From Polytrichum commune (lineage: Eukaryota > Streptophyta > Polytrichopsida > Polytrichales > Polytrichaceae): a DNA stretch of 64,000 nucleotides. The translations under genes were made by a program, and so were the position numbers. Positions 15,845 through 30,516 of this stretch are shown here, piece after piece; the first letter of the stretch is position 1, and the number at the start of each line of letters is the position of its first letter. The notes under the pieces are model-generated. The model saw only the letters and a list, made by a program, of their open reading frames with translations. It had not been told where the DNA came from and did no database searches. The DNA is taken from contig OX485805.1 in assembly GCA_950295325.1 (NCBI GenBank), positions 33,405,501 to 33,469,500 of the forward strand, written 5' to 3'.

Positions 15845-16455
15845 AATCAACCTTCTTTCACTGCAAAAATTTCTCACCAGCACATGATCCACATGCTCAG
15901 AACTCAGACACCGTGATCACAAGAGAGAGACACAATACTAGCAATGGAACTCTACTGCAACATACACGCCAAAAAAAATCTCCAGGTAAAAAAACTGCAT
16001 GATATCAGTCCAGGTGAGTTAAATTGTGAAAATGCTGACTGGTAATGTTTATTAGTCCAGAATAGCGATCGAAATTTAGTTCGTGAATCAAATTTTTGTT
16101 CCTCATTAATTTTTCAATGGGCTCTGGATTTTGCATAATTGCAGCTCGAGCATGAAAACATTGAGTTGATTGCAGCGACACTCATAACACATGTCAAGCC
16201 AAAACCTAACAGATTATCATATATCCCAGTTGCACAAACTTGACCTCAAACATACACCCTTCTTACGATCCCTCCACAACACACACACACACAATCTGTA
16301 TAAGCAATATACTAATCTCACTCACCCACTTCGAATACTCCCTCCTCGAGTCCTCGTCAAAATTCTTGATCGATTGAATATTCCTTCCGAAATAATAAGC
16401 TGCCGAAAATATAAGCTGCACCGAAGTATAAGCTGCCTGATCGATCAAGCTGCAC
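15845..16455. other. CACTA 5' flank with AAGCTGC repeats
   Basis: No gene was recognised. A short (CA)n lies at 16272-16290. From 16396 the motif ATAAGCTGC(ACC)GAA recurs several times. The same motif resumes immediately beyond the CACTA right end (30517 on), which shows that 16455 and 30514 were once adjacent. Confidence 0.5.
16453..16455. repeat. CACTA target-site duplication, left copy (CAC)
   Basis: CAC precedes the left terminus and CAC follows the right terminus at 30514-30516. Three bases is the standard duplication for CACTA elements. Removing one copy plus the element restores AAGCTGCACCGAA, a motif present elsewhere in the flank. Confidence 0.9.
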
Positions 16456-16484
16456 CACTACAATAGATTGGGTATTTTGTGACT
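16456..16484 (+). repeat. CACTA left terminal inverted repeat
   Basis: 29 bp beginning CACTACAATAGATTGGG and ending TTTTGTGACT. It matches the inverse of 30485-30513 except at base 9 (T here, C in the other arm). Confidence 0.95.
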
Positions 16485-17110
16485 AGGGAAATATGACTGG
16501 GGATGACTGGTGACTACATGCAGTCACATTTTTCCAGGCCTCGACCTTTGGGGTGTACGAAATTCAAAAATATGACTCGCAGTCATATTTTACTGTCGTA
16601 TTTGGCAAATGTACTGTATACGGCATATGGGAATGACGACTGCCTTTATAGGGAACGACGGGGAACGTGTATGGTGGACGCACAGTCATATGTGGCAGTC
16701 ACATTTTTCTGCGAGTTATATTCTTCAGTCACATTCTGACTAGGACCATTTTTTTCCTTTTTTTGGGCAGCCCTTGATAATTTAGGCTGCCCTAGACGGG
16801 CCTCTTGTGTTTTTGCCCCATGACTCATTATCTAGTATTATGGTTTGGATTATTTATTTAATAATGAAAGATTTTGGTCAAAATTAAGTACTTTGTGTGT
16901 TATAGTATGAACGGCAATGAAAATTGGGAATGACCCATGTTTATTTAATGAATAATTAATTGATTGATGTTTTAGGGAGTATAGGGGGGAAATTGGGGAG
17001 GAAATTTGATTCTTACTATTGCCAAAAGACTAATTGAACATGTATATAATTGAACTTAAATATATACCCACCTAAGTTTCATTTATACAACTTCTTGCTC
17101 GGACGGGAAG
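16485..17110. repeat. Left subterminal repeats and 3' flank of transposase
   Basis: Up to about 16740 the DNA is rich in AGTCACAT, AGTCATAT and ATGACT units, the presumed binding sites of the TNPA-like protein by analogy with En/Spm. The remainder up to 17110 is AT-rich 3' flanking sequence of the TNP2 gene, with no further coding potential. Confidence 0.6.
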
Positions 17111-20100
17111 TCAATCACCGTCCGAGTCGCAAAGCTCGGAGTCATCTACCGATGTGTCGTCCGGTCCCTCTAGACATTCTAATACCTTGGCAACCACTCA
17201 TGGCCCTACTTCCATTGCATCGCCCAATATGGGTGTCTTCGGTACGATATCGTCATGTAAGGCCGTCACTTGTAATCCGGGAAAATCAGAAGTCCTACCT
17301 AGTGCTATGCATTGTACTTCATCTGTTCTTTGTTGTTTGGAGAATACCCAAACCCCTCTCGGTTCCTTACGCAAAACAACTTCCCATCCACTTTTCGCGA
17401 CGTCAGGTGCAAAAAAAACTTGTTTGATATGGAAAGGAAAGGCAAATGATTGTGCTGAGTAAGGAATCAATCTGTCAAAGTTTACAATGGTGAAACCATA
17501 GTCGTCGCGCTTCATCGTCGCCCCATCTCCCTTAATGTTTGCAACGACCCAATTGCAATAGAGGACCACTACCTCGAAGAATCCAGAGTCCACAGAGAGT
17601 ATTTCCTCAACCCAACCCACATACTCCAACTCCGCTGCCTTTGGATTTGTGTCCTTCAGGCCCGAGCGACATAATTGTCGAAATGTTGCGGCCACCCCAG
17701 AGTCCATCGTTGTCAATTGCGCCTGTGCGCTTTGGACACGGATGTGGTTTCCAAACGCATACATGGATCGATACGACTTCGCTGCATCCGATGGAGGTAA
17801 CATCAAGGCCCTAACGTCTTCTTGTACCTCCTCAGTCCCTTCTTCTATGGCGCGCACCACTGCTTTTGGAAACCAAATGTGGAAATCCTCGTCACGCAAC
17901 TCCGCTGGGTACATTATCCGCGCCTTCCGCTTCTTGCGCTTGTATTCATGCCGCTCACATTCCCGCCGTGACATGTCATCCTCGTGTTTCCTGCATTTTG
18001 GATACAGCCCAACACATCATTACCCGTGACATTCTGAAATCACTAAGGGCAGTCATATTATGCATACAGCAGTAGTCGTACTGTGTCGCGATAACTACAA
18101 CGAAATGCATATTTTACGACTACATTTTGTGATTGTACTCAGTCATATATCCCAAAATATGACTGAGTGCAGTCATAAATTTTGGTCACAAAAGATGAGT
18201 TTTGTTGTAGTTCGTATGGATTGGACTGTTGTTCTAAGAGAGGTCATGCATTTAAGGTTCTTCCACTAAAATGTGAACTCACCTCCTCCATTTTTCCAGT
18301 GGTGCCGCATTGTTCACCACGAACTCATGTATCCATTGTCGAAGGTCGGATGGGAGATGACACGCCCGCCCGCCACCTTCGAGGATCTCATCATACATTG
18401 ATGGGTCTTCTTTGTCATCCTACACTCTTCGAGTGGTGACTGTATATTCTTGCATATACTCTGTACAAAATCCCAATGCCTCTACTATGGCATAGCCTTC
18501 AGCCATGCAACCCTCTGGTCGAGTACGGTTTCGGACATACCCTTTGAGAGTCTTCAGGTACCTCTCTATAGGGTGCATCCAACGTGTATGTACGGGTCCA
18601 CAAATTTCCACTTCCTCCACGAGATGCAGGACCAAATGGCTCATGATGTCAAAAAATGATGGCGGGAATTCTTTTTCCAACATGCATAGTGCTATGGCCG
18701 CTTCACACCTCATCTCATGTATTGTTGCGGGATCAATGGACTTAGCACACACCCTTCTGAATACACGGCTCAACATTATTATTGATGTCCGCACTTCCTT
18801 TTCCATTGTGCAGCGCACACATAGTGCCAACACTTGCTGCATGAGGACATGGTAGTCATGGGATTTTAGGCCTTTCATTGTCCCATCCACGTTTACGCGC
18901 TTCTTCAACTGTCCCACATAGTGAGTGGGGGTTCGCAATGCACGCACTTGCTCCACAAAGACTTCACGCTCTTCTTTCGTCATAACGTAAGAGGACTGAG
19001 GTAGAATCACGCTACCGGGTTTTGTTCCTGCTACGGGCCAAAGATGCGGGCGTATACCCGCCTCCTTCATGTCTAGACGAACTCCAATTGTATCATTCTC
19101 TCCAAATATGATTTTCATTACATTCTCAGCGATGTTTTTCTCACAGTGCATAACATCGAGTGTGTGTCGAATTAGAAGATCCTGTACAGTGACTCGAGCT
19201 AGTGAGAAATTTGCCGGCGTGAATCACAATATCACTACGTGCAATCATGTGACTGTACATGACTACGTCCACTCACATAATACTCATAAACAATATTACT
19301 ATATGCAATTATGTGACTACGTCCAGTCACTTAATTCGGCTAATAATATACACGTACTTTCCAGTATGGAAGGTCATATAGACATGTCCTCCTCTTCACT
19401 CCATGATTGTGTACGGGGTCTGTCGTCTGCCCAGTTTGGTTTCTGTAGTGTTTTTTTGTCCACTCTTCTCGCTTGTTCGCATATCGCAATTGCTCTCGAC
19501 CACTCATCCTTCTTGGCGGTGGTCTCATCTCCGGCTGCCCATCAAAATTGGACCTCTGTCGTCTCCATTGGTGGGTCATTGGCAGTTGTCGTCTATGTCC
19601 AAGGTAAACATTTTTTTTCAACGCTTTGGAACGCCGTGTTGCCACGTTGGGGCCACACACGGGGCAAGCCCTATGTCCTTTTGTTACTTGCCCGGAAATC
19701 AAGCCGTACGCCGGGAAGTCGTTCACCGTCCACAAAAACATGCCATGTAGCTTAAATGTTTTCTCTTTGGAGTTTCCTTGTGATCTGTCCAAGCAGTCGA
19801 TCCCTTTCCAAAGCTCTTGGAGCTCCTCAATCAAAGGTGCCATGTACACATCCACGTTCCTGTCCCTCACACTCTCTTTTCCTGGTATGATTAGCGCAAG
19901 CATCATTACGAAGTTTTTGGTCACTAACCAAGGGGGGAGATTGTAGTTCAGCATGACCACGGGCCAAGTAGAGTGGTTGAGACTTTGGTTCCTAAATGGA
20001 TTTACGCCATCCAGTGCAAGGCCAAGCCTAACGTTCCGTTCATCTTCCGCAAACCACGGCCACCTATTATTTACGTGGTCCCAAGCCTTCAAGTCCACCA

Positions 20101-20911
20101 CGGACCTCATCACCTTGTCTTTACTTTTCCCTCCTACATGCCACTTCATTAGCTCCGCGATCCGTGTGCAGCTGTACATCCTTCACAAACGAGGAATCAA
20201 AGGAAAATATCTCATAACTTTGACTGGAATTGTACTGGAGTTCTCTACAAAGCGCGATTTGTGGCATGTTGGGCACTCCGTTGTATTCTCCAATTCTTTC
20301 CGAAACAAACAACATCCATCTCTACACGCATGTATTGAGTTGTAGGACAACCCCAACTTCATCAACAAGCCTTTCGCCTCGTTAAATGATTTCGGTAGTG
20401 TGTTGTCCTTGGGTAAAATTGTCTCCTTCAACAACTTCAACAACTCATCCACAAAGTTGTTTGGTACGGCGAAGGTGGTGCAACACAATAGTATCAAGAG
20501 TGTCGATGTGAGATGGTTCGAGGGGCTTCCCTCATACAGTGGAGTTCCAGCTTCGTATAAGAGATTTTGGTGGTCTACCCCACTGGGGTCCTCACTGTTC
20601 ATGGTACTCCCTCTTGTTTCCATGGGGTCATTCATTTCTTCCCTTTCCCCCTTACTACCATCACTGTCCCTCGTTGTGAAACCATCCTCCCCTTTATCGT
20701 CTTCAACCAATGCATTCCCGAGTTCCTCATGTATGGTGGCTTCGGTTTCGTGTCCGTCATAATTGAGGCCATCGTACTTGCCGAAGCACTCTGCCACTAT
20801 ACGTAGAACCTCAACTTCTCCATCATGTCCATCGTTTGTGTTAGGGTATGTCTGGCTTCTTTGCCCAGTCCGCGGTACATGGGAGAACAAGTCAATCGGG
20901 CTGTACTCGTC
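17111..20911 (-). pseudogene. TNP2-type CACTA transposase, three in-frame stops
   Basis: Three exons read down the minus strand: 20911-19358, 19181-18283 and 17990-17111. The GT-AG junctions join in frame (YWK|DLLIRH and KWRR across the second). The total is about 1,110 codons, normal for TNPD/TNP2. Exon 1 holds an acidic N-terminus, EAKGLLMKLGLSYNSIHAC, ECPTCHKSRF and YFPLIPRL, then the TNP2 core (RNVRLGLALDGVNPF, WPVVMLNYNLPPWL, LHGMFLWTVNDFPAYG, ACPVCG). Exon 2 holds HTLDVMHCEKN and the DUF4218 region (EFPPSFFDIMSHLVLHLVEE, RWMHPIERYLKTLKGYVRN). Exon 3 holds DUF4216 (RDDYGFTIVNF, IKQVFFAPDVAKSGWEVVL) and an acidic tail. TGA at 20183-20185, TAG at 18420-18422 and TGA at 17198-17200 interrupt an otherwise perfect frame; each fits a single transition (CGA or TGG). 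The introns contain AGTCATA repeats. The first exon boundary (ctctgcag at 20912) implies a further 5' exon or UTR upstream. Confidence 0.9.
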
Positions 20912-21442
20912 CTGCAGAGAGTGATAAATTTGTGCGCACGTTATATATTTTCGCTTTGGCAGAAATATACGATAAGGATTCATAACAATGACAAACATAG
21001 ACCACGGATTGTATATAACATGGACATATTATATACAAATGTATGAAAACGACAGGGAGCAATCACAAGTAGTCTTGTATCACATGGACGAGTCATAAAT
21101 TTGTGACTTCTGTGTTACATGGTTCTGTCATAAAATGCGCGCTGTATCTAACGAGGGGCAATCATGAAACGCCGAATATAACATGAACGTGTAACATGCG
21201 GGGGGGGGGGGGGGTGTTCATCGATTATGAAGACAAGAGTGTGTCAGGTAAAAGAAATTTCATGCAACATACAACGGAAAACCAATGGATGTAAAAAATT
21301 GGTCATGTTCCACGTACACATGTATACCGTGGTCCGGACATGTATACAAAATTTTGTCAAAACAAAACATGACTTGGTGTAGTCATGTTAGTGAACACAT
21401 GGCACACTTACTCATTCCTAATATGGACTAATGGGTGCCAGC

Positions 21443-22341
21443 CTACAATGCGGTGTGCGGGTTCAAAGAGTAGTGTGCATACAACTCTTCTCCGACCAAA
21501 ATGTCCTTTGTGGCTAAGGTGATTACATACCCCCATTCATGTTTGTTCCAGGGTTTTGGCAACATGCAAAATTTCCACACCACATTTCCTATTTCTTTGC
21601 GTCCTATGGAACTATTTATGAAGCCAGCGACATTCCCCTTCATTACATCTCCATCGATGTACAAGTCCGGCTCAACTTGCATCGCATATGACTTCACTCG
21701 AGGTTGTGCCTTCTTCAAAGCTCTGTATTCTCCCAAGGTGTATTGTGGTCCTACAAATGGAAGCAGTTCCTCTCCCTCTTTGGCGGGTTGAAGTGCAAAG
21801 AGACCCCAACCCATGAATGGGAAGTTGGACACCCTTACTTCCCATTCTCTATTCCAGTATGAAAACTTTATAAGTTTTGGGATGGGCCCGTCACACCACT
21901 GTCCGTCATACACGTTTGACCCCCATGTCTGCAAGGCTCGTACTCTTGCAAACGTTGTGTTTGGCATTGACTGTGAAGGCGTTTTGTATCCTCCTAGAAA
22001 CTTTCTCAGGGATGTCTTGCAAGCAGCTTTTACAATGGGTCTCCATCGGGCCTACAAAATTCATGTACACAAAGATGAAAACTCGCTCATAGCAAGACCA
22101 CCCGCTTACGCTCATTCAAAAGTCGTTTCATGGAATGACTCACCAAGATAGACGTTGTAAACACAGGGTCCCTTTTTTTGCTGCGAAGATGCTTTCGGAT
22201 TGTGGCTCGATCGAGGACTTTCCCTCCTGCACACTCCATGCATGGGCATGGGTACTTGGATAGCCGCATTGCGTCTGCTTGGACCTCTTCTTCTTGCCAT
22301 AACTGTAGATGCTTCAAGCTTTCGACCTCCCCTCCTGCCAT
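21443..22341 (-). CDS. Transposase-associated motif fused to SET domain
   Basis: Two exons: 22341-22144 and 22051-21443, with a 92-bp GTGAGT...TTTTGTAG intron; both are phase 0 and give 268 residues without stops. Residues about 27-55 have KYPCPCMECAGGKV and RKHLRSKKRD, the CPC..C...H pattern of the transposase-associated domain found at the N-terminus of CACTA transposases. From about residue 125 comes a SET domain: FMGWGLFALQPAKEGEELLP (SET-N, GWG), a middle segment with YAMQVEPDLYIDGDVMKGN, then VAGFINSS (position of N-H-S-C; Asn kept, His replaced by Ser), and ITLATKDILVGEELYAHYS (GEEL..(D/H)Y with the Tyr). No post-SET cysteines were seen. It lies inside the CACTA, between the transposase and the divergent promoter, so it may be an independent gene or share a promoter or first exon with the transposase. 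A role in modifying histones or other proteins is inference; the altered NH motif may affect activity. Confidence 0.75.
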
Positions 22342-22471
22342 CCTGTGGTGTGCACGGCATACGGGGCGGGTCAATTTGTGATATGGGGATACCTTACAAG
22401 GAGTGAGTGCTCACATGCGCGCAGTCACTTGAATATGTGGATACATATGAAAGGGGAGTCAAATAACCCAA

Positions 22472-22574
22472 GGCAGTCATATAACACACGGGAGTCATAT
22501 AACACATGGCAGTCATATAACACACGGGAGTCATATAACACATGGAAGTCATATAACACACGGGAGTCATATAT
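22472..22574 (+). repeat. 18-bp tandem array GG(C/G)AGTCATATAACACA
   Basis: Nearly six head-to-tail 18-bp units alternate GGCAGTCATATAACACAC and GGGAGTCATATAACACAT. The array sits just upstream (on the minus strand) of the SET-fusion gene. It is a concentrated set of the element's AGTCATA motif and could be a binding array for the TNPA-like protein. Confidence 0.85.
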
Positions 22575-22790
22575 TGATGGTAATTGAATAATTATTTATG
22601 ATGTCCCTAAGTTTACACGGAATTCAAGGAAATTCAAAAAGTTGAAGCCCAAACTATATTGGGTTATGAAACTTACGCCCATAACCAGATTTACCCTCTT
22701 TTCTTTTGAGCATTAAATTTAGGGATAAGTTTTCATAATCTCATTTAGATATTCTAAATTTGAGTACTTAACAAAAATTCCAATTCAACC

Positions 22791-23129
22791 CGAGCTGACT
22801 TTTCACCCTGTTTGCCTAATTTTAAGCGGCCCCTAAATATATCATAATCGATTCGGCCTGATTCATATACCCCAGTTATACGTAAGTGTGGTGAAGCCCA
22901 TACTTTTTTGGGTAAAAGTAATTTCAACGAGGCCCTAAGGAAATCCACAATCGGACCCCTTTTTACCCTGTTCTTGAAATCGAGCTGACTTTTCACCCTG
23001 TTTGCCTAATTTTAAGCGGCCCCTAAATATATTGTAATCGATTCGGCCTGATTCATATACCCCAGTTATACGTAAGTGTGGTGAAGCCCATACTTTTTTG
23101 GGTAAAAGTAATTTCAACGGGGCCCTAAG
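22791..23129 (+). repeat. Direct duplication of a 149-bp block
   Basis: 22791-22939 and 22981-23129 begin CGAGCTGACTTTTCACCCTG and end GGGGCCCTAAG / GAGGCCCTAAG, offset by 190 bp. They differ at only a few bases (ATATCATAATC versus ATATTGTAATC and one more). The near identity implies a recent duplication. Confidence 0.9.
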
Positions 23130-23228
23130 TTAATTCCATTAATTAAAATTTAGGGTTAATTAGGCTTACTGGATATAAAAATTGAGTATTGTAATTACTG
23201 AGATTCCATTTTTATAATTTATGAAAAT

Positions 23229-23480
23229 CTCTCTCTCCCTCCCTCCCTCCCTCTCCCTCTCCCTCTCCCTCTCCCTCTCTCCCCCTCTGCCTCCCTCCCT
23301 CTCCCTCTCCCTCTCTCCCTCTCTCCCCCTCTGCCTCCCTCCCTCTCCCTCCCCTCCCTCCCCTCCCTCCCCTCCCTCCCTGCGCTCTCTCCCTTCCTCG
23401 GACATCTGTCCTGTAAAGCCGACTCTGTCTCTCTCCCTCCTTCCCTCCCTCCCTCCCCGCGCTCTCTCCCTTCCTCCTTG
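23229..23480 (+). repeat. Polypyrimidine (CCCTCT)n microsatellite
   Basis: Mixed CTCTCC, CCCTCC and CCTCTG units run for about 170 bp, then resume near 23430 after a short unique stretch containing GGACATCTGTCCTGTAAAGCC. Frames across it on both strands are artefacts (Ser/Pro/Leu or Arg/Glu/Gly repeats). It may be a CT-rich 5' leader. Confidence 0.85.
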
Positions 23481-23529
23481 GCCATCTAACCTGTATCGCC
23501 GAACACCTAAAGCTCTCGCCTTCTACCAG

Positions 23530-24300
23530 ATTCGAATTCGGCAGTGCTGCTTGAAGGATTCCGGTGCAGTGCTGGGTTCGGAGCATCAGGTAAGTGTAGG
23601 GTTCGGTGCTGCTTGAAGGATTCCGGTTCAGTGCTGGGTTCGGAGCATCAGAGCCATGTAGGGTTCGGTGTTGCTTGAAGGATTCGGTGCAGTGCTGGGT
23701 TCGGTGCTTAAAGGATTCGGTTAACTTTTTGGGTTCGGTGCTTGAAGGATTGCCTACAATGTTGGGTTCGGAGCATCAGAATAGTGCTGGGTTCGGTGCT
23801 GCTTGAAGGATTCGGTGCCACAGCCAAGTTCGGAGCCGGAGATAAGTGCTGGGTCCGTTTCTAAGTTGAAGGATTCGGTGCAGTGCTCACAAGGAGCATC
23901 AGACAAGTGTTGGGTCCGTTTCAAAATTGATTATGCAGTGCTCACAAGGAGCATCAGACAAGTGCTGGGTCCGTTTCAAAATTGATTATGCAGTGCTCAC
24001 AAGGAGATTCGGTGCAGTGCTGGGTTCGGTGCTCTATTCGGACAGTGGCTACTCGGTGCTGTATCGGTGTGTGGGTGCCCTTGTGAGACTGCATGAAGTG
24101 TCTCTAGTTTCGGCCACAGCTAAGTTCGGTTCAGTAAAGGTTCGGTGTTGGGTTCGCTGCAGTGTCCTCCATTCTTCTACTTCGGTGCAGATCCGGTGCT
24201 GGGTGCACTTTGATCCTTCGGTGGTGGGTGTACTTCCATCCTGTGCTCTGATCGGTGTGTGGATACTTCGGTGTTGGGTCTACCCGGCAGCACCTCTTAA
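23530..24300 (+). repeat. Minisatellite with GGTGCTGGGTTCGG core
   Basis: Irregular units built from (A/G)GTGCTGGGTTCGG, TGCTTGAAGGATTC(C)GG and GGAGCATCAG recur many times with variable spacing. Longer exact copies of about 55 bp (CAGTGCTCACAAGGAGCATC...) lie at 23881-24004. Low-complexity frames over it are not considered genes. Confidence 0.75.
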
Positions 24301-26468
24301 CTTTTTGGGTTGAGGGTACCCCTAATTCGGCGTCTCTCTCTCTTCAAGATTGAGAGGGAGGGCTCTCCCTCTGACTACCCTTTTCTCTCACTCTCAAAGG
24401 TTGTGCACTCTCTCATCTCCAAGGCTAAGATTTTAGGTTAACTATTAATACTTCAAAAATCTCAAAACTTGTACTTTGAAAGACAACATGTAAATTGTGT
24501 AATGATCTATCCTAATTCGGACACTAAATCTGGTTTCGGAGTGGATTCCTCTAGATGGCTCATACTAATACCCCACACACACAAAGTAATACGAAGAGGA
24601 GAAAGGTGAGCTCACTTGAATTCGCAACTTCCGCGTCGTTCAGTTGTGGAGGTGCTGGTTGTTCGACACCTCCTCCGCTCACATGTAGCTGGAACAGCAG
24701 CAATGGGGACAGCCTTATTGTCCTCAATTAACACTAATGTGCATTTGGGTATTGTAGAATCATGGAGGAGGAAATTCCGGAGTATGAGAGGATGCGGAAG
24801 AAAAACATCGAGGCCAACAACCAGAAGCTGCGGGAACTGGGTCTGTCACTGATTGGGACTTCTCATTTCAAGAGGCATGAGGACCTCGGGTATGTATGAC
24901 CAAACCCTAATACAACGGACCCGCTACAACTAGGGTTGCTTATGCATTTTGAAACTTTTAAGAGTCCTTGTAGTCATAAATTGCATACAACTTGCTGAAG
25001 ACATGACTGTTTGCAGTCATAGTTCATAGTATTATGACTCCCTGTAGTCATAGTTCAGAATATTATGACTCACTGTAGTCATACTTTAAGGTCATTATGA
25101 CACAGTCCAGTCACATTTTTGTGTGTATGACTCTTCCCAGTCCTAAAAATATTGTAATTTCTTCCCACATCCATGTTCTTGTGCATCGGATGTGGCTTCT
25201 ATTGGTTTTCTATGATCGTGCATTTATGATCATGTGTATGAATAATGTTTTTGTTTGATATCACATAATGAATGAATATTTCCTGACTACCCAACAGTCC
25301 AGAGTTACCAAATTTGAAAGGGAATTGTGTATGTGTATGTGTATGTGTTGACAATGTGTATGTGTTGTCAACTTAGCAATAGGTTCTAACAATTACAATG
25401 GAATCCTGAACATAGTTTCAGTAATAGACAATCAATTTCAATTTTTATTTTCAGCCAATCTCATTACATGTTGTGAACAATTTCATGATTATGACTCCTC
25501 CCAGTCATACTAATTTTCACCCACATGACTCATTTGAGTCATGTTTCAGCATTGACATGTGTTGGAGTCACAATTTTTGTGAGATGTAATGTCCGTCTAA
25601 TGATCCCTGCTCGTACTGAACAGTGTGGTTCCCGCGACTTCCACCAAAAATGCCAAAATGAACAATGTACTAGTCAATTTGATAACAAAAATAGTTAATC
25701 TGCCTGATGGCATGCAGGTGGAAGTATTTCGCACAATTGCTAGTTTCCCGGCAATTTCATTGCCGGTTTTGGAAATGACTTCGAATGAGGTTGCGCGTGT
25801 TTTTGAGAGCAGCCGTGGCGTGCCTGTGGGAGAGCCAGGCCCATCTCTAGAGCAGGGTGGTGGCTGGGGTGTGACCACTCGAGCGAAGGGAAAAAAACAA
25901 CTTCCTGAAACGGACCTCGATGATGACGAGGACGAAGAGGACGAAGAGGAGACTTCTGAGGACGAGCGGCCCAAACCAAGGAGGCGGAAGGTGAAAACAT
26001 ACATCTCCGTAGTTTCTTGCATTTGCTTCCGCATTCAGTCGTTCGCGTTACATGACTATAGGTAGTCATATGACTTTGTCCAGTCATATTATGTAACTTA
26101 GTACAGTCATGTAGGGTGACTCCATGCAGTCATATAGTGTATTGTACGTCTGGGTGTGTAGGGAAATGCAAATGAACCCAGGTCATGGCCGTTGCAATCT
26201 AGAGGAAAGAAGGGCAAGGCGGTCAATGAGGAGGATATCCTGCTGTCCCAAGACATGCAAGATACTCTCCGGGCTTGCGAGATGGACGCCAACGACGCAT
26301 CAGTGGACAGCGAGGAGGAAGAGGATGGCGTAGGGCATCATAACGAGCTCCTTGACGAGTTGGAGCTCCGGGAAGTAAGCATTTTGCGGCGTATGGCTAA
26401 AAAAGGAGCCGATCCGACACAACTTCGCGAGAAGGTGCGTTGCCTTGGCCGGACGGCAGAGGTTCAAG

Positions 26469-28003
26469 GTGTGAGCCCAAAATGATGCCCACATGTGGTG
26501 ATTAACTTTTCGAAACCAATTTTAGTTTGACTTTTATGTGTTATGATTATTCACAAAACATAAAAATAGTGAAGTGTGGTTTAGATTTAAGTTTAGGCTT
26601 TAGAATGTGTTGTGTGATTATTTCAAGGTTGAATTCAATAAGAGTATGCCTTGATAATGTGAGTAGGGGGTAAGGTGAAGCAAGGTGAGCTCCGCGGGTT
26701 AAATGCCCACTTTTGGATCCACCTTGTTAGTTTAGGAAGAAGGAAGCTTGGTGGAAGGGGATTAGTCCCTACTTTAGAGGTGAAGGTTAAGGGATTTTGA
26801 TTGGAGGTGCTAATCCTCTCACCCTATTCTTACCTCTCTCTCCCTCTCTCCCTCTCTCCCTCTTTACTACTTAAGGTGGTTTCTCTCTTATTTTTCTCTC
26901 TCTCCATCAAGCGCTCTCAAGGGAGCAAGCTCTTAAGAGCTTGAGCCACGTGTGTGGGTTATTAGTTTTTAGTGAAGTTAATTAGTTAAGCTCTCTCTCT
27001 CAATGCCTCCCAAGTGAGTGCACTCTTAGAGCTTGAGAGTACCTAGGAAGATTAGGTAGTTGTTAGTGACGTTAGTGTGGTAGGTTAGTTCATTAGTTAA
27101 GGAGAGAAGAAAGGAAAAAAAAATAAAAAAAAATAAAAAAAATTAGAGAATGTTTGATTAGTAGATAAGGTGGTGTGTTAAGGGCAATTTAGAGGCAGAA
27201 TTATCAAGTTAGCTAAGGCCAACTGGTAGACCTCGGCTGCGAATGCAGCTCAGCTGCTAGAGGAGGGCAGCACCGAGGACTAATGGGCAGCAGATTGCCG
27301 AGAGCTAATGGGCAGCAGACTGCCGAGAGCTAATTAGTTGCAAGCCACACTTAGGCTGCGACTGCAGCCCAGCTGCTGGAGGAGGATAGCACCGAGGACT
27401 AATGGGCAGCATACTGCCCGAGAGCTAATTAGTTGCAAGCCACACTTAGGCTGCGACTGCAGCCCAGCTGCTGAAGGAGGACAGCACCGAGGACTAATGG
27501 GCAGCAGACTGCCCGAGAGCTAATTAGTTGCAAACCACCATTAGGATATCTATGGGTTAGCAAGGCTAAGCCCAATTAGTGGGCGTTAGCATATAAAAAA
27601 CTAGATTACATTAGGCCATTTTAGGGGTGGCTAAGTAGTTAGACCCATTAGGCTAGTTTGTGCCATGTGTGGGTTTGTATGAGTGTATTTAGCCGTTGAG
27701 AAAAGTGTTTTTCAACACTTGAACCTCCCGGTCAAAATAACTCACTTGCATTATTAATGGAGAATGAGGAAGATTCTTGCAATGACAAGAAAAAGGAAGT
27801 GAAGATTAAACGAGCGAGGGGAATGTCCTTAAGGGCATGTGTGGCTAAAGTCGCGGGTTGGACTTTTGAGAAAGCCAACTCTAGCACAAGCCAAGAGGCC
27901 AACATTAATAAAGCACAATGAGTGAGACAATACGTGTTCATTCGAACATGAAAATTACCTTGCACATGGTTCAATGTTGTAATATATAAATGTGATTTTC
28001 AAG
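26469..28003 (+). mobile_element. 1.5-kb insertion in the TNPA-like exon
   Basis: The coding frame stops making sense at 26468 and resumes at 28004. Removing the interval joins GTT CAA G|TC ATC in frame. TTCAAG occurs at 26463-26468 and again at 27998-28003, consistent with a 5-6 bp target-site duplication. The insert has no ORF of note. It holds CT-rich leader-like DNA near 26830, a 95-bp tandem repeat at 27240-27540, and an AATAAAG polyadenylation-like signal near 27908, a promoter-to-polyA layout like a solo LTR. It lacks clear TG...CA ends, so the exact boundaries and class remain open. Confidence 0.6.
27240..27540 (+). repeat. 95-bp tandem repeat (GCAGCCCAGCTGCTGGAGG)
   Basis: Three copies contain CAGC(C/T)CAGCTGCT, AGCACCGAGGACTAATGGGC and AGAGCTAATTAGTTGCAA. 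The last two start at 27364 and 27459, 95 bp apart. The first copy carries an extra 24-bp partial unit. It is confined to the 1.5-kb insertion. Confidence 0.85.
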
Positions 28004-28624
28004 TCATCACCCGGACTAGGATGCTTAAGGGTGGTGGATTTGGCCTCACACAAGGCAACGACGGAAACGCGCGGCATCGACAGTCGAAGTTGAAGAACCT
28101 TAGGCGGTCCTTGAAGAAGAGTGACGAGCTGCACACTTCCAGTGGTGGTCAGCGTTTGTGGGTCGACGTCGACGAGGCCGGGTGCCCGACAGGGATACAC
28201 AGGCCTGATTGGCTGACGCGACTACGCAGGTACTCTCGCGACCTCGACTGGAGCGTCGACAACTTTAGGGCACACCCACGGCCCTTGTTGTTGGCGATTA
28301 AAGACAAGATGGCCGCACGATTCGAGTACCGTGGTGGACTCGGAGACGTGCCTGAAGCTATTTTTTTCAGATTTTGCGCCAGCAGATGCGGACTCGCAGG
28401 TCGAACATGAAGAAACTCATAGAGAGTTGTGGCCCGCTCCCACCGTATGTGAAGAAGGCGCACGTCGACAACTTCAAGCGCTTAATTGCCCGGACGGACA
28501 AAATCGCGGAAGCTACGCGCATGAAAGCCGCACGGCAAACCGTGTAGACCTTGTCGTATTCTGGAAGGTCCGAGGAGGAGGTGCGCTCTAGACTGGTAAG
28601 TGATTTTGTGTACAAGTCATTCAA

Positions 28625-28912
28625 ACATAAATAGGTGACAACCTGCAGTCATACAATTCAGTCATATAATGAATGATATCACTTTACATAGTCATACCGT
28701 GAGTCATATGGCCATAGATAGTCACATGTGACCTGAATATGACTTCACCTAGTCATATTCAGAGACATATGACTTCACCTAGTCATATGTTGAGTAATAT
28801 GACTTCAGGTAGTCATATTATGAGTAATATGACTTTAGCTAGTCATATTCTGAGTCATATGACTTTACCTAGTCATATTCTGAGTCATATGACTTTACCT
28901 AGTCATATTTAG
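28625..28912 (+). repeat. 30-bp tandem array with AGTCATATGACTT palindromes
   Basis: From 28735, 30-bp units of the form ATATGACTT(T/C)A(C/G)CTAGTCATATT follow each other, the last ones nearly identical. Looser AGTCATAC/AGTCATATG units begin at about 28650. The array lies in an intron of the TNPA-like gene. Each unit contains AGTCATATGACT, a self-complementary 12-mer. Confidence 0.85.
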
Positions 28913-29679
28913 TATGTTTACGTATTTTTCATGGATCCACAGTTGCTCCTTTCACAGGCCGCAGATTTAAAGCGGCCCCCGACGCAGCTGGAGGTGGAGA
29001 CCGAGCTAGCGACACCCGGGAAATCAGGACGGGGCCGGTCATCGTCGTCCAGAGGGCCACTCCCAAATGCAAAAGCGGGAGATAGAGCCCTCTTTGTTAC
29101 GCGGAGCGAGCTGCACGACTTCCAGGATAGCATGAAGGGGGAGATGGAAGATGTGAAGGCTATGGTGAAGCAGCTGTTGTTGGAGGTGCAGAAGCGAACG
29201 ACGGCCACGAACATGGAACCGCCAGCCACGGCGGAAGCGGGAGTCGACGTGATCCAAGTAACCGCCGAAAAGGTTGCGTCTGTATATCCTCTAGTACTCG
29301 CTTCGAGTACATGTATGGAACACCTTTGCTTCAGCAATATTGTATGTCATGCATGAAGATCGTTCACTAATACACGCCTCATGTGGATCATTAGAATATG
29401 CAGGCAACTGGGAAGTCGGCGGAATCCGGGCATACTGGGTCGACTGCGGCATCGGAGCCCTGCGTAACACCCTAGCAGATATGGGTTGCCAACCCGTCAT
29501 TCAAAAGAAGAAACCCATAGCCAAGAAGAGGAAGGGCGAAGCGGAGAAGCTATTGGCGGAACGCGATGCACGGCCTACCCGGCGTGCAATGGCTCGACAG
29601 AAAGAGGTTGGCATTCATGTCATATGCACATTATACTTGTCGGATAGTTATACTTACGTGCAAGCTTTATGTCTTTAAT

Positions 29680-30484
29680 TTGGCCTCAACATTGGACAGT
29701 CATATGACTATGTCACATAATATGACTCTAGGCATTCATGTTATACGACTATAGGCGGTCATACTATATGACTCACTGCAGTCATAAAACATGAGAAGTA
29801 GCAGTCATATAACATGACATGAGGTTATCACAAGCAGTCATGTAGCACATGACTTGAATATGACGTCATTGCTTGGAATGTGCCACGAAATGTGACTGAC
29901 ATTCAGAATTGCAAGTAATACGAATCTAACTCAATACAGTTACAACAACGCACAAAGAATTACGCAATGTGACTCTCCATCTACGCGAATATCACTCCAT
30001 CATGTCACATTGTGCATCACATGTTACTAAGAATATGACTACAGAACGTCATATAATAATGTCATCCCCGCAGGAAATGTGACCAACGCCCCAAAAAACA
30101 TGACTACAAGCAGTAAAAAAACTAGCAGTCACATTCCACGTGGCCTGCCACGTCGGCAAAATTATGACACATGCAAGTCATATTGCACGTCAGCAGAAAA
30201 CATGACTACATGGAGTCATATGCCACGTCGGTTTGGTATTTTTTCTGCCCGGGCAGGTCAAAAAAAGGCACAGACTCCAAGGCTAGTCAAGGTATGCCCC
30301 ACGTGCAGTGGGGATCGTAGAATCTGTCATTTTATACGCCTCCACAACCGTATATATTCATATGACTCATGTCCGAAGCGACTCGTCGGTAATGACTAGA
30401 CCCAGTCACCGCGCGCGTCATCCTCATCCGGAGCCTCGTCAGTCATATTTTGGGATTTTATGACTTAAGGCAGTCATAAATTAC
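29680..30484. repeat. Right subterminal repeats of the CACTA
   Basis: Dense AGTCATA, ATGACT, AGTCACAT and ATGACTACA units in both orientations fill this interval up to the terminal repeat. 30090-30160 (CATGACTACAAGCAG ... CCACGTGGCCTGCCACGTC) has a close inverted match at 34676-34765. Confidence 0.85.
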
Positions 30485-30516
30485 AGTCACAAAATACCCA
30501 ATCTGTTGTAGTGCAC
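30485..30516 (-). repeat. CACTA right terminal inverted repeat and TSD
   Basis: 30485-30513 is the inverse of the left terminus with one mismatch. 30514-30516 is the second CAC duplication. The host motif CACCGAA follows directly. Confidence 0.95.

Follow-up and report, generated by a model that had tools for sequence, protein, structure and literature searches.

A SET-domain exon in CACTA transposons of Polytrichum commune: one gene that might yield both a transposase and a histone methyltransferase for its own copies

Introduction

Action of plant transposons against chromatin silencing is known for few families. The window analysed here is a stretch of 64,000 nucleotides of the Polytrichum commune genome (GCA_950295325.1, contig OX485805.1, positions 33,405,501 to 33,469,500) in which a gene for a SET-domain protein lies among transposon genes. 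A first interpretation of its letters, made without database searches (hereafter the sequence-only reading), described this gene as a fusion of a SET domain to the Cys/His motif associated with CACTA transposases, and suggested that such a protein could counter host silencing or mark insertion sites. The locus raises the question of whether the SET protein is truly a product of the transposon, how its gene relates to that of the transposase and what the protein would do for the element.

The CACTA element of the window

The element is about 14 kb long in the window copy. Its features, in window coordinates, are the following.

16456..30513, minus-strand gene order: whole CACTA element, with CACTA ends and GTG duplication; homology to four other copies stops there
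30485..30513, minus strand: terminal inverted repeat of the 5' end, 29 nt
16456..16484, plus strand: terminal inverted repeat of the 3' end, 29 nt, one difference from the other end
22144..22341, minus strand: exon 1, 66 codons with the CPC..C...H domain, ending in phase 0; putative N-terminal exon common to the SET protein and the transposase
22052..22143, minus strand: intron between exon 1 and the SET exon, 92 nt, GT...AG
21443..22051, minus strand: SET exon, 202 codons and a stop; proposed alternative terminal exon
21470..21811, minus strand: SET domain itself, protein residues 147-260, from PF00856 and a fold match
20911..21442, minus strand: stretch from the SET stop to the proposed transposase acceptor, with CTCTCTGCAG just above 20911
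19340..20910, minus strand: transposase exon, Transposase_21 (tnp2, PF02992), with an in-frame stop at 20183-20185
18420..19223, minus strand: DUF4218 (PF13960), an open stretch, part of the CACTA transposase gene
17198..18016, minus strand: DUF4216 match, open, just under the cut-off (30.1 against 30.6 bits)

Both termini read CACTACAACAGATTGGGTATTTTGTGACT (one difference) and are flanked by the target-site duplication GTG at 30514-30516 and 16453-16455. Homology with the four other copies that were fetched stops at window positions 30513 and 16455/16456. Flanking triplets were compared in the three copies with both ends: those of two copies matched (CAA and ACA) and those of the third did not, the fourth copy being left out of this test as its 5' end lies outside the stretch. 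Downstream of the SET exon and on the same strand, PF02992 is matched with 241 bits and PF13960 with 124 bits. The CACTA identity follows from the terminal ends, the target-site duplication and the tnp2-type transposase. A Harbinger or MuDR transposase is absent from the window element, whose transposase is a Transposase_21. The SET gene is carried inside a CACTA transposon, as the sequence-only reading had supposed: termini, GTG duplication and tnp2-type transposase are all present.

A second, divergent SET-bearing element (L048, of subfamily D as defined below) has ends that match over 22 nt (CACTACTACAAAAACATGGCTT) and a CTT duplication. These ends are 5.7 kb apart and enclose a SET gene and a tnp2. 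Because its termini independently enclose both, SET can be said to belong to CACTA elements. For the A and C elements, no termini were found in the stretches examined around them; their transposase likewise lies downstream of SET.

Other parts of the window element are variable or repetitive. None of the four other copies contains the segment 26470-28050, which is therefore probably a nested insertion; some of its sequence matches DNA immediately beyond the element's termini in one of them, copy c1. At 29835-29844, the four other copies carry about 1.8 to 4.7 kb missing from the window copy. Tandem arrays of ATATGACT-like units lie inside the element at 22454-22573 and 28660-28909. Subterminal repeats are a feature of CACTA elements, and arrays of the ATATGACT type resemble them. 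The plus-strand open reading frames 25604-26485 and 27952-29678, opposite in direction to the transposase, have no Pfam match over the cut-off and represent a possible TNPA-like gene.

The two-exon SET gene

The exons 22341-22144 and 22051-21443 do join in phase, and translation gives 66 + 202 residues followed by a stop, i.e. 268 amino acids. The SET gene of the window copy is complete by itself (ATG, two exons, stop), and the landmarks attributed to its product (CPC..C...H, GWGLFA, FINSS and GEELYAHY) are all found in the translation. It had further been described as the only gene of the element free of stops. This is correct for the Transposase_21 frame, which is broken by an in-frame stop, and incorrect for the DUF4218 and DUF4216 stretches, which are open.

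Profile comparison of the 268 residues gives different outcomes for the two domains. The SET domain PF00856 passes its cut-off (35.9 against 22.4 bits, residues 147-260), whereas the Transpos_assoc domain PF13963 stays under it (18.3 against 27.7 bits, residues 24-52). In exon 1 of all the SET-bearing copies scanned, Transpos_assoc scores 16.9-21.4 bits, under the 27.7 cut-off. The homology of exon 1 to Transpos_assoc is drawn from its colinear alignment with tnp2 N-termini that do pass the cut-off. The U-box profile PF04564 (cut-off 21.4 bits) matches exon 1 together with the first SET-exon residues in subfamilies W (24.1 bits), A (24.6) and B (22.9), and is over the cut-off in none of the D and C sequences scanned. 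The match may be fortuitous or point to a shape similar to a U-box.

Copies in the genome

The assembly searched has a size of 407.8 Mb and includes seven large contigs (42-78 Mb). Scoring covered the best 150 candidates per search, and all genome counts are therefore lower bounds. With the SET exon, at least 150 matches were scored (the best 150 of 205 candidates; 140 after merging neighbours). Other copies with the SET gene, for which the sequence-only reading had proposed a search, exist in the same genome and fall into several subfamilies. Subfamily W, that of the window, has 28 full-length SET-exon matches including the window copy, with 91-100% identity. The copies read from the other subfamilies share 53-58% (A and B), 47% (C) and 46-49% (D) identity with the window SET exon.

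The same two-exon layout is found in the divergent subfamilies W, A, B, C and D. Exon 1 lies just upstream of SET in 19 of the 20 divergent copies read (46-72% identity), the exception being L047; in L056, exon 1 is present and SET is shortened by a deletion. A GT follows exon 1 at 17 of 18 listed ends (L045 is without it), and the SET acceptor is changed in L048, the D element with intact ends. The intron between exon 1 and SET measures about 90-130 nt across copies and 256 nt in L043. The SET gene is more than a chance assembly because 28 copies with 91-100% identity and divergent copies with the same layout exist. That the SET protein is truly encoded by the transposon can be regarded as practically certain.

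Decay and selection

Among the 28 W copies, the AG acceptor is present in all, the SET exon is open in 18, and exon 1 is open with its donor in 21. The whole two-exon gene is intact in 15 of them and broken somewhere in 13. The dN/dS of the SET exon was calculated by the Nei-Gojobori method. Within groups, it amounts to 0.457 in W (378 pairs), 0.400 in A (10), 0.192 in B (3), 0.213 in C (1) and 0.456 in D (28). The well-measurable case between groups is A versus B, with 0.195 at a dS of 0.64 (15 pairs). The other between-group ratios are 0.14-0.30 with synonymous sites near saturation (pS 0.67-0.80), and three group pairs gave no ratio. Bootstrapping gave 0.195 (0.117-0.313) for L038 versus L040 and 0.270 (0.169-0.442) for L048 versus L049. 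The dN/dS among copies, a measure suggested by the sequence-only reading, is thus about 0.2 between A and B.

In W, 135 coding changes were counted, 79 of them nonsynonymous against 70-74% expected (p 0.004 to 5e-5), 11 stop changes being excluded. Changes common to at least two W copies give a weak signal (29/48 nonsynonymous, p 0.03 to 0.11). Comparison of the within-W with the between-group results indicates that young copies are fairly free and that constraint is clearest between lineages. Judged from these substitution patterns, the SET exon is under purifying selection. The two-exon layout is old and has been maintained by selection.

The SET domain

The SET-like segment stands up to both profile and fold comparison. 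PF00856 is over its cut-off of 22.4 bits in 8/8 proteins scanned from four subfamilies (window 35.9, seven others 32-41 bits), and SET proteins make up 50/50 among the matches listed in each of two fold searches. A profile of 11 SET exons retrieves ASH1L and Set1 chains at about 1e-5, and a profile of 30 rows retrieves Set1 at 7e-6. The first structure model (11 sequences) had a mean pLDDT of 40.6 and was too poor for use. The model from 30 rows (mean pLDDT 56.9, pTM 0.57) can be used only for its SET part, as residues 1-59 of the SET exon are under pLDDT 50 and unmodelled. Its best Foldseek match has an E of 2.8e-8, with SET8, COMPASS Set1 and MLL1 at 3e-8 to 5e-8. By VIA-align, the model matches 6uh5 with Z 12.7 (126 residues, 2.8 A), SET7/9 and SET8 with 12.5, and vSET with 11.7 over 105/105 residues at 2.2 A. 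As to parentage, the profiles favour ASH1L and Set1 and the folds favour Set1, SET8, MLL and SET7/9, by small differences.

GWG, Y122, N146, GEEL and Y194 (SET-exon numbering) are invariant in 11/11 aligned subfamily members. We take GxG, GEEL and the last Tyr, all invariant here, to be SET motifs, and NH is presumably part of the SAM-binding motif. Its His is replaced by Ser, as the sequence-only reading had noticed in the window: the aligned members have Ser in 11/11 with the Asn kept, and the position is Ser or Asn in further copies looked at. This distribution marks the missing His as an old feature of the family, and not as decay of the window copy. The post-SET Cys cluster is absent from the SET protein, because the protein ends soon after Y194.

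Exon 1 and the transposase gene

At least 150 PF02992 places were scored (the best 150 of 643 candidates). SET lies 0.9-2.6 kb upstream on the same strand in 73 of these 150, and a scored Transpos_assoc is found within 4 kb of 17; the remaining 60 have neither within 4 kb. None of the 150 scored places has both, which means only that they have no second, canonical domain, since exon 1 is itself under the Transpos_assoc cut-off. Within 4 kb of the SET matches, scored PF02992 places never lie on the opposite strand.

Several observations bear on the place of exon 1 in the transposase gene. Five ordinary tnp2 genes of this genome encode the Cys/His domain in one open frame with the transposase, and exon 1 is colinear with their N-terminus. 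The transposase exon of W, A, C and D starts after a CAG acceptor in phase 0, matching the end of exon 1, and the three boundaries are phase-0 compatible in these four subfamilies. The acceptor CTGCAG is present in 8/8 W loci read; in L007, a stop without a later ATG stands just above it. ATG codons in the transposase frame occur just above the acceptor in W and A, so that a separate start is conceivable there from the letters alone. In 5/5 D copies read, the transposase frame has no Met between its last in-frame stop and codon 53-55 (this count leaves out L052, L053 and L055), and the codons ahead of the Met at codon 53-55 are conserved between L048 and L049.

Elements without SET were also examined. 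Among five upstream stretches without SET or a scored Transpos_assoc, exon 1 is found in three, a scrap of SET in two and neither in one. In L103 and L104, exon 1 stands where it is expected and is followed by the transposase, with no SET by profile. L104 has an intron of 96 nt, bounded by a GTATGT donor and a CTCAG acceptor, through which exon 1 would connect to the transposase in phase 0; L103 offers several possible acceptors for the transposase. L107 has exon 1, about 20 codons of the SET-exon start and an open transposase, L106 has the last 25 codons of the SET exon, and L105 has neither exon 1 nor SET in its upstream stretch. SET can thus disappear and leave exon 1 and the transposase in place. 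SET is not needed for spread either, since SET-less relatives are many (the 60 scored tnp2 places with neither domain).

In a transposase tree of 24 rows, the SET label changes four times and the SET-bearing rows are not one clade. This is read as one old gain of SET followed by losses, because scraps of SET remain in L106 and L107, with transfer as the other possibility. In the same tree, L103, L104 and their neighbours L093-L098 and L102 form a SET-less CACTA group near subfamily C, in which exon 1 was seen in L103 and L104.

A two-product model

The fusion proposed by the sequence-only reading can be kept in part. A CACTA-encoded SET protein with a transposase-like N-terminus exists in many copies; exon 1, however, appears to belong to the transposase gene. 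Because of this, the SET exon is probably an alternative terminal exon situated within intron 1 of the transposase gene rather than part of a separate fusion gene. Exon 1 would be spliced to either downstream exon, as the phases and splice sites suggest. If it is joined to the SET exon, translation would terminate at the stop of that exon and yield the 268-aa protein made of the transposase N-terminal domain and SET. If the SET exon is skipped and the next acceptor is used, the transposase would result. The Cys/His N-terminal domain would then be common to both products, if this splicing is right. This gene structure, with its two products from the transposase gene, is in our judgement probable. 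Points that weigh against the model are the ATG codons above the acceptor in W and A, the Transpos_assoc scores of exon 1 under the cut-off, the scatter of SET-bearing rows in the transposase tree, the many SET-less relatives, the missing NH His and post-SET cluster, and the altered SET acceptor of L048. In A, B and D, the SET exon has in-frame GT codons (VN) close to its end, through which SET might itself be spliced on to the transposase; this reading was rejected, since W and C are without such codons.

The subsequent steps are less certain. The shared domain would direct the SET protein either to DNA of the element itself or to the transposase, where SET would methylate histones or another protein and so keep the element expressed. 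The conserved motifs and the structure model slightly favour an active methyltransferase. An anti-silencing role is proposed tentatively and may well be wrong. The complete scheme, one gene with two terminal exons that yields a transposase and a histone methyltransferase, both guided by one shared N-terminal domain, with the enzyme marking the chromatin of the gene's own movable copies, is at present rather doubtful as a whole.

Alternative explanations

Two alternatives concern the origin and structure of the gene. A captured SET exon could have acquired a copy of exon 1 from the transposase, which would make two neighbouring genes with their own starts. The completeness of the SET gene by itself and the ATG codons above the acceptor in W and A agree with such a separate gene. 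Yet none of the 73 SET-bearing tnp2 places has a second scored N-terminal domain upstream, the D copies and L007 are without a start codon above the transposase, and in L103 and L104, which are without SET, the same exon 1 serves the transposase; we consider two separate genes improbable. CACTA elements are also known to capture gene fragments, and a host SET fragment trapped in the element and carried without function would fit the 13 of 28 W copies that are broken somewhere. Such a passive passenger is hardly credible: it would not be expected at the same place and in the same layout in subfamilies with saturated synonymous change, and it is contradicted by the selection test, i.e. the dN/dS of about 0.2 between A and B, and by the invariant SET residues. 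A shared first exon with an alternative SET exon thus stays the preferred structure.

Two further alternatives accept this structure or its product and differ on the function. SET could be a decoy or binding module rather than an enzyme, one that tethers or inhibits by attaching to histone tails or partners. The replaced NH His (Ser in 11/11, Ser or Asn in other copies) and the early end of the protein after the last Tyr, with loss of the post-SET cluster, would suit a non-enzymatic role. PRDM9 is nevertheless active without the NH His and vSET without post-SET, and the invariance of GWG, Y122, N146, GEEL and Y194 in all 11 members and the match of the model to vSET over its 105 residues also speak for an enzyme; a mere binding module is therefore judged unlikely, while remaining a serious competitor. 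The SET protein could also restrain the element, as a self-limiting regulator that either puts its own copies under a repressive mark or acts on the transposase by methylation. The spread of SET-less sister elements is in line with this, and so is the occurrence of element-encoded repressing regulators in En/Spm (PMC2613891). Against it stand the sequence neighbours of the SET domain, Set1 and ASH1L, with scores too close to those of others (EZH2) to decide. Sequence alone makes no distinction between an activating and a repressive mark. Set1 and ASH1L are enzymes linked with active chromatin, and self-restraint seems to us quite unlikely. The preferred function is still a methyltransferase that keeps the element expressed, with the reservations given above.

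Comparison with known systems

A CACTA element with SET was not found among the papers listed by searches of the open-licence PMC literature. SET genes in other DNA transposons are already published, and the difference here is the proposed shared-exon layout in a CACTA element. HarbingerS and MuDR transposons of Phytophthora carry a SET methyltransferase gene (Kojima and Jurka, cited in PMC12730594). They are alike in being DNA transposons that encode a SET-domain protein, and differ in transposase superfamily and host; the citing sentence mentions no exon shared with the transposase. The proto-Helentron of Phytophthora infestans is another mobile element with a SET domain (PMC4067079). It differs as a rolling-circle element whose SET reading frame, as described there, is stand-alone, intronless and about 153 aa long. 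Fungal EnSpm (CACTA-type) families carry a TET/JBP dioxygenase, for which escape from silencing was proposed (PMC12730594). They share with the present element the superfamily and the presence of a chromatin- or DNA-modification gene, in contrast to which their enzyme is of a DNA demethylation type, their hosts are fungi and the gene layout reported there is another.

For the gene structure, the closest likeness is maize En/Spm, in which tnpA and tnpD are made from one transcript by alternative splicing, the tnpD frames lying in the region of intron 1 (PMC2613891). Two proteins would similarly come from one CACTA transcript here, one of them within intron 1, on the predicted splicing. The second product of En/Spm is, however, the transposase itself and, as that source describes it, without SET. 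An exon placed in an intron behind the transposase N-terminal domain would be a route to an addressed chromatin enzyme without a fusion gene.

For the working of the protein, two systems can be compared. In human SETMAR, a DNA-binding domain derived from a transposase directs SET to the ends of transposons (PMC6326780). The likeness lies in the working only, a SET domain with a transposase-derived domain, and the targeting is a proposal here. SETMAR is a host gene from a single mariner fusion, in contrast to a multi-copy CACTA family that uses the transposase N-terminal domain only. VANC of the Arabidopsis VANDAL elements is an element-encoded, sequence-specific anti-silencing protein (PMC5735166), alike in working if the proposed role is right. 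It differs, on that account, in being a non-SET protein of Mutator-type elements that acts on DNA methylation. In the CACTA elements of P. commune, a SET exon that persisted through deep divergence and is gone from sister elements offers a natural comparison of copies with and without it, for expression, histone marks and copy number.
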